DNA of 13,696 bases, from positions 1 to 13,696 of the forward strand of contig JAMOTU010000007.1 in the NCBI GenBank assembly GCA_027062165.1, given 5' to 3'. Of the stretch, positions 9,517 through 12,686 are shown in pieces. Position 1 is the stretch's first letter. Every line of letters begins with the position of its first letter. The position numbers were made by a program, and so were the translations under genes. The notes under the pieces are model-generated. The model did no database searches and was not told the DNA's origin. It was given only the letters and a program-made list of their open reading frames with translations. Source of the stretch: Candidatus Altimarinota bacterium. Lineage in GTDB: Bacteria > Patescibacteriota > Gracilibacteria > Absconditabacterales > Absconditicoccaceae.

Positions 9517-9813
9517 TTAAAAGCTAAATAAAGAATCTATTTTTTTATTTATATATTGTTTAATATTATTTTTAATCTCTTCTTTTATTTTCTCTTTTTC
9601 CTGATTAATCTGAGTAGTTATTTGATTAGTAGTATTTTTAATCATTTGTTTAGAATAAGTTTTTCATTTCTCTAATTCAGACTTTATTATATTATGAACT
9701 TCCTCAGGTAATTTTTCTAATCAAAAATTAACTGTTATATTAAAAGCAAAATATCATCATATTATTAATCAAATAATCACTCATAAAATCATTCCTAAGA
9801 TAAATCCTTTCAT
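9517..9813 (-). CDS. Small membrane-anchored helical protein, unknown
   Basis: The 98-residue product has a glycine-rich hydrophobic helix at about residues 3-25 with a GxxxG-like pattern (GMILGVIIGLIIGG). Four of these glycines are TGA. A long polar helix full of Lys, Glu, Gln and Asn follows and looks like a coiled coil (residues about 33-98). I recognise no family. It sits between ftsW/rodA, whose last 19 bases overlap its start, and the anchored MoxR gene 12 bases downstream. It could assist either as a small scaffold or regulator. The ATG at 9813 is the only reasonable start, since the helix begins at residue 3. Function is inference from position and shape only. Confidence 0.75.
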
Positions 9814-10913
9814 GACTTTTGACTAATTAAATAAAGTTTATATAAAAGCACCAATTCAACAATATTAATTATTAAAGAAGTACCTCCATAACTTATAAAC
9901 GGCAATGTAATTCCTGTTATAGGTAAAAGTTTAATATTAACTCAAATATTAACAAAAGCTTGTATAAAAATCAAGGATATTATTCAAATACCTAACAATT
10001 TATAATATTCATCATAAATATTTTTAATAGCTTTTAAAGAAAAATATACTAAACTAAAATATAAAAACAATAATATTAAATTTCAAATAAATCATATTTC
10101 TTCAGAAAAAGCTGCAAATATAAAATCAGAATATGCTTCAGGAATATATCAAAATTTTTGCAATCATTTTCAATATCCATTTCCAAATAATCATCAAGCT
10201 CATACCGCTATAAGAGCCTGTTTTGTCTGCCATCATATTCATCTTCAACTAACATCAATATCAGGATTAATGAAAAAATCTATTCTTTTTCTTATATAAG
10301 AAAATTGCATTCATATTGTTAATCCTAATATTAATCAAATTACTAAAAAAGTTACTACATATTTAAATTTTCAACCTGCGTATCGATACATAATCAATGA
10401 AACAGGTCATAATATTAACAAAGTTCATAAATCTGGTATTTTCAGAAATATTAAAAAAAATATACTTATTACAAAAATAAACTGAAAAAATCACTCTGGA
10501 GTTTTCAACAATTTCTTTTTTTTTAAAAGCCATCATGCTAGAAATATCACAAAAGCTAGTTTAAAAATTTCTGCTGGTTGTAAAGTTGAAAATCAAGGAA
10601 GAGGTATTTTTATCCATCCAGCAGCACCTTTTAATTTTAATCATAAAGGAGTAAAAACTAATAGCTGTAATATCAAAGCTCATATAAATATTTTATTTTT
10701 ATATTTCTTTATAAATTCTAAAGGTATTTTGTAAACAATTAATCATATTAAAATTCAAATAATAAGATATTTAATATGTCTCAAAAAATAAAAATAATTT
10801 GATGGATCTCAAAATTTACTTAAAGTTAACTGAAAAGAAGAAAATATACTTACTGAATATATAGCTGCTATTCAAAACAATATTAAAAGACATCCAATAA
10901 TAAGCACAGGCAT
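9795..10913 (-). CDS. SEDS family peptidoglycan polymerase FtsW/RodA
   Basis: The 372-residue integral membrane protein has about ten hydrophobic helices. SEDS motifs are clear: GAAGWIKIPLPGFSTLQPAE at about 96-115, a QTKQALIAVGAGGLFGNGYG segment at about 229-248, then GYIPEAYSDFIFAAFSEEIG with Asp263 at the catalytic position of the large loop, and INVGVNIKLLPITG-like ending (residues about 322-334) before TLPFISYGGTSL. SEDS proteins polymerise glycan strands from lipid II with a class B penicillin-binding protein. FtsW acts in division, RodA in elongation; I cannot choose between them here. An in-frame TAA 12 bases upstream fixes the start at 10913. Many glycines are TGA. It is the first gene of the long leftward operon, with a candidate promoter about 75-100 bases upstream. 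Confidence 0.95.
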
Positions 10914-10984
10914 TTCAAAATTATCTTAATTTACTTCTAAAAATGAATTAAATTTTTATAAGAATAAATACATAAAATTCAAAC

Positions 10985-11014
10985 TATAAAACCAATTTAT
11001 TATCAATTTGTCAA
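10985..11014 (-). promoter_or_regulatory. Candidate promoter of the long leftward operon
   Basis: A consensus -35 box TTGACA is at 11014-11009 on the minus strand. A weaker -10 follows: TTTTAT at 10991-10986 (17-base spacing) or TTTATA at 10990-10985 (18-base spacing). Transcription would start near 10978, about 65 bases before the ftsW/rodA ATG. It is the only full TTGACA near the start of the eight-gene run. Confidence 0.4.
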
Positions 11015-11094
11015 TATACAAATATTATACATTTCAATATAGTGATAAATATAAGTTAGCAAAAAATTATTTTTATATATTGAAAAAAAATAAT

Positions 11095-11121
11095 TTAAGA
11101 TTATTTTAATGAGCGTATAAT
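11095..11121 (+). promoter_or_regulatory. Candidate promoter of the structured RNA
   Basis: A perfect TATAAT is at 11116-11121. The -35 side is weak: TTAAGA at 11095-11100, spacing 15, is the best nearby match. Predicted start is near 11128, which would place the copy of CCTGTTATATACAGG at the very 5' end of the RNA. Confidence 0.45.
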
Positions 11122-11126
11122 AATAT

Positions 11127-11141
11127 CCTGTTATATACAGG
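11127..11141 (+). repeat. Direct repeat copy 1, CCTGTTATATACAGG
   Basis: This 15-base sequence is repeated exactly at 11292-11306. It is itself a hairpin (CCTGT/ACAGG around TATAT). Copy 1 sits at or just after the predicted transcription start. Confidence 0.9.
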
Positions 11142-11288
11142 ATATTGTTGAGTCCGGCCACCAGGTTGGGACCAACAAACCAACTGGGGGAGCCAGGGTT
11201 AAATTATAGTAATATCACCATTTGGATAAGATGAATTTTATTTTATCTAAATGGTGGTATTCCACAGGCCCTGGCTCCCCCATAGCCA

Positions 11289-11320
11289 GGGCCTGTTATA
11301 TACAGGTCCTTTTCTTTTAT
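11289..11320 (+). terminator. Intrinsic terminator of the structured RNA
   Basis: The stem GGGCCTGT (11289-11296) pairs with ACAGGTCC (11302-11309), with one G-U, around the loop TATAT. It is followed directly by TTTTCTTTTATTTT. This is a textbook rho-independent terminator on the plus strand. Its 5' arm is also part of the 3' arm of stem D, so D and E cannot coexist. Confidence 0.75.
11292..11306 (+). repeat. Direct repeat copy 2, CCTGTTATATACAGG
   Basis: This is an exact second copy of 11127-11141, here forming the core of terminator E. The two copies enclose the central part of the structured RNA symmetrically. Confidence 0.9.
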
Positions 11321-11321
11321 T

Positions 11322-11349
11322 TTGAAAAAAAATTAAAAATAGTTAATAT
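11322..11349 (+). promoter_or_regulatory. Candidate promoter of tyrS
   Basis: TTGAAA (11322-11327) and TAATAT (11344-11349) are 16 bases apart, giving a start near 11356 and a leader of about 32 bases. If this is used, tyrS does not depend on readthrough from the RNA upstream. A small inverted repeat GTTAA-TAT-TTAAC (11342-11354) overlaps the -10. Confidence 0.3.
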
Positions 11350-11387
11350 TTAACATATTAATTTAGCTTGATAAATAAAATAAAACA

Positions 11388-12686
11388 ATGACACAAAAGT
11401 TATCTCTTAAAGAAGAACTTCAAAAACGTGGATTAATATACCAATATACAGATGAAAAACTTTTTGAAGAGTACGATAAATGAGGAAAAGTTTTATATTT
11501 GTGAGTAGATCCTACTGCGGATAGCTTACAATTATGAAATTTAGTACCTATAATGGCAGCAGTTAACTTTATGAAAAGAGGCAATAAATTAATATTAATC
11601 TTATGAGGTGCTACTGGTATGATAGGAGATCCTTCGTGAAAAGACAAAGAAAGACAACTTAAATCTATAGAAGAAATCAAAAAAAATTGAGAGAAAATAT
11701 ATAGACAACTTGTAGACATTTTAGACAGGTTATCAAAATTTTCAGGTATAAAACTAGAATCTGAAGTTGTAAATAATTATGATTTTTATAAAAATATGTC
11801 TATTTTAGAATTTTTAAGAGATGTTGGTAAATATATTACAGTCAATCAAATGATAGCAAAAGAATCTGTTAAAAGGAGATTACAAGATCCTGAAAGATGA
11901 ATTTCTTATACAGAATTCTCTTATATGCTTTTACAATGATATGATTTTCTAAAACTATACGAAGACAAAAATGTTCAACTTCAAATTTGATGATCAGATC
12001 AATGGTGAAATATTGTAACAGGAATAGAATTAATTAGAAAAAAATTAGGAAAAGACAACGCGTGGTGATTTACAGTACCTTTATTAACTACTTCTGATGG
12101 TAAAAAATTCGGTAAATCAGAAGGAAATGCAATATGGATAGATCCAAACAAAAACAGTCCTTATTTTGTATATCAATATTTCATTAATACCACTGATGAA
12201 GATGTAGAAAAATTCCTTAAAATATTAACTTTGCTTGATTTAGAAGAAATAAATAAAATAGTTGAGAAACATTTTGAAAAACCAGAAAAAAGATTCGGAC
12301 AAAAAAAATTAGCATATGAAATAGTAAAATTTTTATTCGGAGAAGATGAAGCAGAAATTGCAAAAAATATTTCCGAATTATTATTCTGAAAAGAAAACAA
12401 ACTAGAAATTTTATCTAAGTTTAACAATCAATGACTTGAAAGATTATTTAATGAAATTTGAGGTATAAAAAATATCAAACTTCCAATTTCTATCTTAGAT
12501 ATTTTAGTAGAATCTTGACTAGCTAAATCAAAATCGGAAGCTAGAAAATTAATAAAACAATGATGAATATATCTTAATGAAAAACTAATTAATGATATAA
12601 ATTATCAAATTACAGATAAAGATTTTATCAAAAACATAGCTTTATTAAGAAAATGAAAAAAATCATATAAATTACTAATAAAATAA
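11388..12686 (+). CDS. tyrS: Tyrosyl-tRNA synthetase
   Basis: The 432-residue product is full length for a bacterial TyrRS with a C-terminal S4 domain. It is a class I synthetase that charges tRNA-Tyr. Visible landmarks: LYLGVDPTADSLQLGNLVP at about 36-54 (HIGH region), ILGGATGMIGDPSGK at 71-85, ISYTEFSYMLLQGYDF at 172-187 (tyrosine pocket), QIGGSDQWGNIVTGIELI at 199-216, KKFGKSEGNAIWID at 239-252 (KMSKS equivalent), and an S4 RNA-binding domain from about 366 (ISILDILVESGLAKSKSEAR...). The HIGH motif reads QLGN: the first His is Gln48 and the second Asn51. Many motif glycines are TGA. No Shine-Dalgarno is evident before the ATG. Its stop is 2 bases from the stop of the convergent ttuA. Confidence 0.96.

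Follow-up and report, generated by a model that had tools for sequence, protein, structure and literature searches.

What is encoded between the ftsW/rodA and tyrS genes of this bacterium? The DNA analysed here, a stretch of 13,696 nucleotides referred to as the window, has genes that read sensibly under genetic code 25 only, in which TGA specifies glycine, and the closest relatives of its TyrS, among those with informative labels, belong to Gracilibacteria or Patescibacteria. Between the FtsW/RodA gene (9795-10913, minus strand) and tyrS (11388-12686, plus strand), both read under code 25 and both confirmed by Pfam in the position that an earlier note had given them, lies an element (11122-11318) with 42% G+C compared to 24% for the whole window. 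The earlier note took this GC-rich island in AT-rich DNA for a compact structured RNA that fits no recognised family and, in hedged terms, for a lineage-specific regulatory RNA. Comparison of sequences from related genomes establishes a family of such elements with a common architecture, with covariation in their helices and with a copy-specific complementarity between two segments of the 3' half, B and C. The structural part of the earlier proposal is thereby borne out; the regulatory role is one that we infer.

The intergenic element of the window

The segment 11122-11320 folds with -100.8 kcal/mol compared to -52.8 +/- 4.8 kcal/mol for dinucleotide shuffles (z -9.9), and none of 200 shuffles was equally stable. 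The predicted RNA of about 190 nt consists of two 5' hairpins, the first of which the earlier note had recognised, a linker, a long rod and an intrinsic terminator (Table 1). The perfect GC-rich stem described in that note forms the lower part of the rod and is one pair longer than the 13 pairs counted there, and the AT-rich hairpin that caps it comprises more pairs in the MFE fold than the 19 to 21 that had been given. The terminator was identified correctly and is the only terminator-like site in 10800-11600 (one found, 0.2 expected). The TATAAT motif is located directly upstream of the element as reported, but the promoter is weaker than was implied: the best -35 sequence matches at four of six positions with a spacing of 15, and promoter-like sites around the element occur at about the level expected by chance (8 found, 6.3 +/- 2.3 expected).

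Table 1. Features of the intergenic element, in window coordinates.
Feature	Position	Strand	Basis and remarks
TATAAT, probable -10 box	11116-11121	+	Sequence reading and script; -35 weak; promoter-like sites at about chance level
H1, 5' hairpin	11122-11146	+	Fold, sequence
H1 apical sequence CCTGTTATATACAGG, recurring in the terminator	11127-11141	+	Sequence
H2 hairpin	11147-11176	+	Fold; loop ACCA at 11160-11163, unpaired A at 11151
Linker, single-stranded	11177-11184	+	Sequence and length both variable among copies
A, 5' strand of lower rod stem	11185-11198	+	14 perfect pairs with 11269-11282
Upper rod, with an asymmetric internal loop below an AT-rich apical hairpin of about 24 pairs (MFE)	11199-11268	+	Fold; 3' side of the loop also pairs with C
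B, 3' strand of lower rod stem	11269-11282	+	Alternative: 11265-11275 with 11285-11295
C, 5' arm of terminator	11285-11296	+	In the alternative fold, paired with B
C:D intrinsic terminator	Hairpin 11288-11310, U-rich tail TTTCTTTT to 11318	+	Terminator search

A TTGAAA sequence follows the T-rich tail at 11322-11327, and likewise in three of the other copies described below (G027, G000b and G002b); it is possibly the -35 box of the next promoter or part of the element.

Copies of the element in one bacterial family

A BLASTN search with the window element in 49 genomes of the bacterial family returned nothing credible beyond its own locus: 23 of the 49 genomes (G000, the genome of the window, counted) had matches at E <= 0.1, and the longest match outside the locus spanned at most 41 bases. 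A second element with the same layout was spotted by eye upstream of tyrS in the nearest relative (L030, apparently G027:C11; TyrS 67% identical), and a third adjoins tyrS of G002. The pattern GTTG..CCACCAGG..CAACAA is present in three of the 49 genomes, exactly G000, G027 and G002, and the reversed control in none. A covariance model built from the window alone identified a second copy in G000 (G000:C28:11980-12137; 58.8 bits, E 4e-11), a three-copy model searched against 40 genomes a second copy in G002 (1102804-1102969; 65.4 bits, E 1.5e-14), and a five-copy model, also searched against 40 genomes, a copy in G020 (G020:C19; 30.2 bits, E 3.8e-4). The copy in G018 was reached by BLASTN from G020 through a weak 41-base match in the flank (E 0.014), and those in G013, G019 and G021 were obtained with the pattern HCCTACCAAGGK followed by folding. 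Taken alone, the latter pattern proves nothing, as its reversed control gave 12 matches; nine of its 15 matches were rejected after folding.

In total, eight of the 49 genomes contain ten copies, two each in G000 and G002 and one each in G013, G018, G019, G020, G021 and G027, and all within one bacterial family, in agreement with the lineage-specificity that had been proposed. The five copies found first are G000a (the window copy), G000b, G002a, G002b and G027. Because covariance models and pattern searches overlook divergent copies, these totals are a lower bound: the single-copy and the three-copy model both missed the G027 copy genome-wide and the former also missed that of G002, implying that the other 41 genomes may hold undetected copies. 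Several candidates were not accepted. G004:C30 (27.2 bits) consists of a terminator only, G002:C1:1085952 (38.1 bits) and a match in G001 (19.7 bits) lack a rod of the right kind, and L102 (25.4 bits) was also set aside. No copy was seen in 20 further neighbourhoods of tyrS or MurG genes.

To gauge specificity we used a descriptor, drawn up once the copies were known, of a hairpin with an ACC[AC] loop followed by a rod and then a terminator; G002b fails it because its loop is ACCCC. Applied to tyrS, murG-like and copy-bearing loci (258,155 bases), the descriptor finds known copies only, and all ten matches in 74 other loci (238,055 bases) are known copies. Across 1.16 Mb tiling G002 it recovers the known copy and one likely false positive in a G+C-rich stretch (L136), and across 0.79 Mb of G027 the known copy only. 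It has no matches in 120 viral loci (1.10 Mb) or in 37 more distant tyrS loci (0.22 Mb), and six alternative loop motifs placed in the descriptor gave no matches across G002 and G027. Class-wide pattern matches were obtained in six of 353 genomes, three of which (G156, G238 and G292) lack the element by the descriptor, and viral pattern matches, among the matches listed, were taken as chance, as none of the 120 loci passes the descriptor. A separate descriptor of the three helices A:B, B:C and C:D gave 52 matches in the complete G002 contig, with the two copies ranking first (scores of 95 and 88.5; next 73.5). In a separate observation, three loci of G002 (L147, L178 and L186) contain stretches with similar repeated pieces of the types GGAGTACCCC and TTGTAACAAA, which may represent an intergenic repeat family of that genome that forms hairpins.

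A protein-coding function is not supported by the reading frames. As had been noted, the window element contains no reading frame: no ORF of at least 60 aa overlaps it under code 25, and frames that begin with a start codon and span the ACCA loop reach 46 codons at most. Frames from a start codon do overlap G002a (102 codons), G027 (97), G000b (88) and G018 (80), and Pfam gives no match for those of G002a and G000b. The phase open in G002a, G027 and G000b has 36 codons in the window, with no start before the loop, and 8 codons in G019 and G021. Across the copies, there is no common phase in which the ACCA loop is covered by an open frame.

The Rfam covariance models likewise leave the element without a family. 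At thresholds up to E 5 no family, T-box and riboswitch families included, has a match overlapping the window element, and for three other copies the same is true with a threshold of E 2. The G027 copy gives 14 sub-threshold matches up to E 10, of which the best (mir-3150; 30.3 bits, gathering 100, E 0.0017) was taken as a chance match to a long hairpin.

Common anatomy and a competing helix

From 5' to 3', the copies have in common a hairpin (H2), a linker, a rod interrupted by an asymmetric internal loop, and a terminator, and H2, rod and terminator constitute the MFE fold in nine of ten copies. In H2 the stems vary and the loop is ACCA in nine copies and ACCCC in G002b; the loop-closing pair is C-G or U-A in all ten, and in nine the 5' side carries an unpaired A on top of the lowest four to five pairs. 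The U run after the terminator is broken by one C in eight copies and unbroken in G013 and G019. H1 is present in the five first-found copies and variable, and extra 5' hairpins occur in G027, G000b and G002b. A loop of the type GG-NAUU(U)-CC that seemed common to H1 and terminator is loose, restricted to the first five copies and absent from G018, G019 and G021, and was discarded. The distance from H1 to the tail is 176-257 nt in the five first-found copies and that from H2 to the tail 160-195 nt in all ten. The fold z-scores of the five are -11.1, -11.1, -11.7, -8.5 and -9.9. Promoter-like hexamers lie upstream of several copies; for G027 the script detected none of the chosen kind.

Two-sided changes are observed in 22 of 33 pairs in an alignment of three copies and in 28 of 33 pairs in an alignment of five, in which 97% of the cells are paired and to which none of 500 shuffles came up by any measure; controls in which the sequences were slid gave 36-55% paired and 4-11 pairs with two-sided change. 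In the lower rod stem, 13 of 14 pairs changed on both sides among the five copies. As the alignments (A5 and A7) had been made to fit the structure, they are biased in its favour; nevertheless, the variety at single pair positions, e.g. C-G, G-C and U-A, is real sequence, and some positions hold pairing via G-U. Comparing relatives for compensatory changes, as the earlier note had advised, thus gave conservation with strong covariation rather than their absence.

The 3' half can also adopt a second fold, which the earlier note did not mention. In the window copy, CAGGCCCTGGC, a segment of B at 11265-11275, can pair without a mismatch with GCCAGGGCCTG, which lies at 11285-11295 in the terminator arm C. 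When partners were swapped among the five copies, the copies' own A:B, B:C and C:D combinations were each the best of 120 arrangements and A:D was not (34 of 120 as good); the same preference for the own C (best of 120) holds for the stretch just 5' of B, most of which is left unpaired by the rod. Among all ten copies the rod 3' strand pairs with its own C with a mean of -17.9 kcal/mol compared to -7.9 kcal/mol for foreign C, the own partner is best in eight copies, and none of 20,000 permutations was as good; the same holds for 20,000 re-pairings of C:D. The corresponding counts in controls were 15,134 for the rod 5' strand with C, 5,580 for the rod 3' strand with D and 167 for the rod 5' strand with D, the last being low as expected if the rod 5' strand resembles C. 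With the test restricted to the five later copies, 130 of 5,000 arrangements of the rod 3' strand with C were as good. Segment borders in these tests were set manually, and B:C had been noticed before its test. A pairing of H2 with A, striking by eye as an upstream sensor, is not copy-specific (48 and 74 of 120 as good).

The predicted energies of the two folds depend on whether D has been made. Before D, forcing B:C costs 0 kcal/mol in G000a, G002a and G002b, 2.8 in G027 and 12.0 in G000b, so that in four of five copies, all but G000b, no fold beats B:C by more than 3 kcal/mol. With D present, the cost is 11.3 kcal/mol in G000a, 16.1 in G000b, 0 in G002a, 4.2 in G002b and 14.6 in G027, and a fold lacking B:C is ahead by 4-16 kcal/mol in four of five copies. 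G002a keeps B:C in its MFE fold even with D, so that the terminator form is not always favoured. Moreover, B:C is weak in G018 (-9.5 kcal/mol) and G020 (-7.1 kcal/mol). Antiterminator and terminator are mutually exclusive, and both are kept by covariation across the ten copies, weakly in G018 and G020. In total, these comparisons, confined as they are to sequence and predicted structure, support well a structured RNA family outside Rfam with a copy-specific competing helix, and this family is seen so far in one family of bacteria allied to the code-25 Gracilibacteria. The two competing 3' folds suggest a molecular switch.

Neighbouring genes, descent and possible functions

The next gene downstream is convergent in six of the nine copies with readable surroundings and co-directional in three; G021 is unreadable at a contig end. 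The RNA adjoins tyrS in G000 and G027, upstream and on the same strand, with tyrS starting about 70 nt after the tail in the window and 98 nt after it in G027, and it converges on tyrS in G002 (G002a), where the order is MurG-like gene, tyrS, RNA. In G002b the tail is followed, about 60 nt further on, by the start of a co-directional gene for a 5'-3' exonuclease. In G018, G019 and G020 the RNA converges on a gene with Pfam glycosyltransferase 28 domains, which we take from its motif to be MurG-like, so that in six of eight genomes one of the neighbours of the RNA is tyrS or a MurG-like gene. G013 converges on a T4SS-pilin-like gene and G000b on a DNA-methylase-like gene; the latter (L110 10921-11979) matches Pfam N6_N4_Mtase with 35.9 bits, and its product may be a DNA or RNA methyltransferase.

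On a TyrS tree of 30 genomes, six of the eight RNA-bearing genomes among them, the RNA-bearing genomes fall outside a well-supported group (98/96) of 18 genomes without detected RNA. The presence of the RNA takes four changes on this tree compared to 5.6 for shuffled labels, with 31 of 500 shuffles as low, and vertical descent of the RNA is plausible.

Combining these data, we suggest with about even confidence that the element encodes a stand-alone trans-acting regulatory RNA that probably functions in an RNP and whose 3' half is a two-state switch. A protein or RNA partner would read the ACCA hairpin. During transcription, rod strand B would capture terminator arm C and, once D has been made, the A:B rod and the C:D terminator would usually be favoured and the RNA released. 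Stabilising or opening the rod would then tip the outcome, either towards release or read-through or towards one of two forms that the finished RNA can take. Read-through would, however, often enter the antisense strand of a neighbouring gene, and what role it could have is hard to see. The convergent next gene in most readable copies argues for such a stand-alone RNA and against a family that serves mainly as a tyrS leader. What we infer beyond the sequence comparisons is transcription, action in trans, assembly of an RNP at the ACCA hairpin, use of switching or read-through, and targets.

Alternatively, though we regard this as doubtful, the element could be a cis-acting attenuator or riboswitch, in which the rod leads to termination and an opened rod allows the B:C antiterminator to form, so that the downstream gene, tyrS in the window, is expressed. 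The three mutually exclusive helices A:B, B:C and C:D followed by an intrinsic terminator are the textbook topology of attenuators and terminator-type riboswitches, B:C is copy-specific, and in G000a, G027 and G002b a gene on the same strand begins some 60-100 nt beyond the tail; cis control is possible in these three copies, as is a cis-acting tyrS leader in the window. However, the latter is not the common arrangement of the family: the next gene is convergent in G002a, G000b, G018, G019, G020 and G013, and the upstream sensor pairing of H2 with A is not specific to its copy. A T-box or tyrosine-specific leader was set aside, as Rfam gives it no support and the copies do not generally precede tyrS. 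No riboswitch or other aptamer in Rfam overlaps the window element or three other copies, and the ACCA hairpin is the sole conserved candidate for one.

A more speculative version of the trans-acting RNA, and an unlikely one in our estimation, is self-attenuating: binding at the rod or at the ACCA hairpin would decide between the terminated RNA and a longer read-through product. If this version were true, the read-through product would be antisense to the MurG-like gene or tyrS in four species, and a self-attenuating small RNA would operate at cell-wall and tRNA-synthetase genes in bacteria with a recoded genetic code.

It is very unlikely that the element represents 6S RNA in a diverged form or a different housekeeping RNA. 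The loose resemblance to 6S RNA that the earlier note saw extends to the size of about 190 nt, the rod with an asymmetric bubble, the apparently stand-alone unit and the two paralogues in two genomes, as 6S has two paralogues in some bacteria; moreover, the Rfam model (RF00013) detects no 6S RNA in seven of eight genomes of the bacterial family tested, G000 and G002 included. The same model gives no match on five of the ten copies (the window copy, L105, L109, L124 and L030), and the ends of the element form hairpins of their own instead of a closing stem. G027 also speaks against a 6S RNA, as it contains this RNA and, as the only one of the eight, a separate 6S candidate. This candidate, at L309 1501-1644 (G027:C6:43560-43703), is near threshold, with 44.3 bits compared to a gathering score of 46.4 (E 4e-8).

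Other systems resemble the element in part. Protein-titrating small RNAs of the CsrB/RsmZ type also have several stable hairpins, but with repeated GGA loops in place of the single conserved ACCA loop, and type I toxin mRNAs such as hok have competing folds around a stable 3' end, whereas the copies share no reading frame. An elaborate intergenic terminator, or a cruciform at the level of DNA, would account for a strong terminator that often faces a convergent gene, but is most improbable given that an ACCA hairpin before the rod and a copy-specific competing helix are superfluous for termination and that pairing is kept through G-U at some positions. A mobile element or repeat (MITE, REP or IS200-like end) is scarcely credible: the apical sequences of H1 and terminator are alike in the window and two genomes have two diverged copies each, but the complete G002 contig has only two copies and most of G027 one, without multiple near-identical copies where genomes were searched in depth, and the copies differ by many compensatory changes and adjoin tyrS or a MurG-like gene in most genomes.

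Within the literature covered, which did not extend to preprints and most subscription journals, we found no studies of small RNAs in Gracilibacteria, Absconditabacteria, Patescibacteria or BD1-5, and candidate-phyla bacteria with recoded genomes seem to be nearly blank in RNA studies. Ten copies, two-sided changes in 28 of 33 pairs and a copy-specific helix make the element a concrete and testable candidate RNA switch in recoded bacteria. If this switch works without a downstream gene, the geometry of an attenuator would be separated from the control of a gene in cis, which would be unusual.
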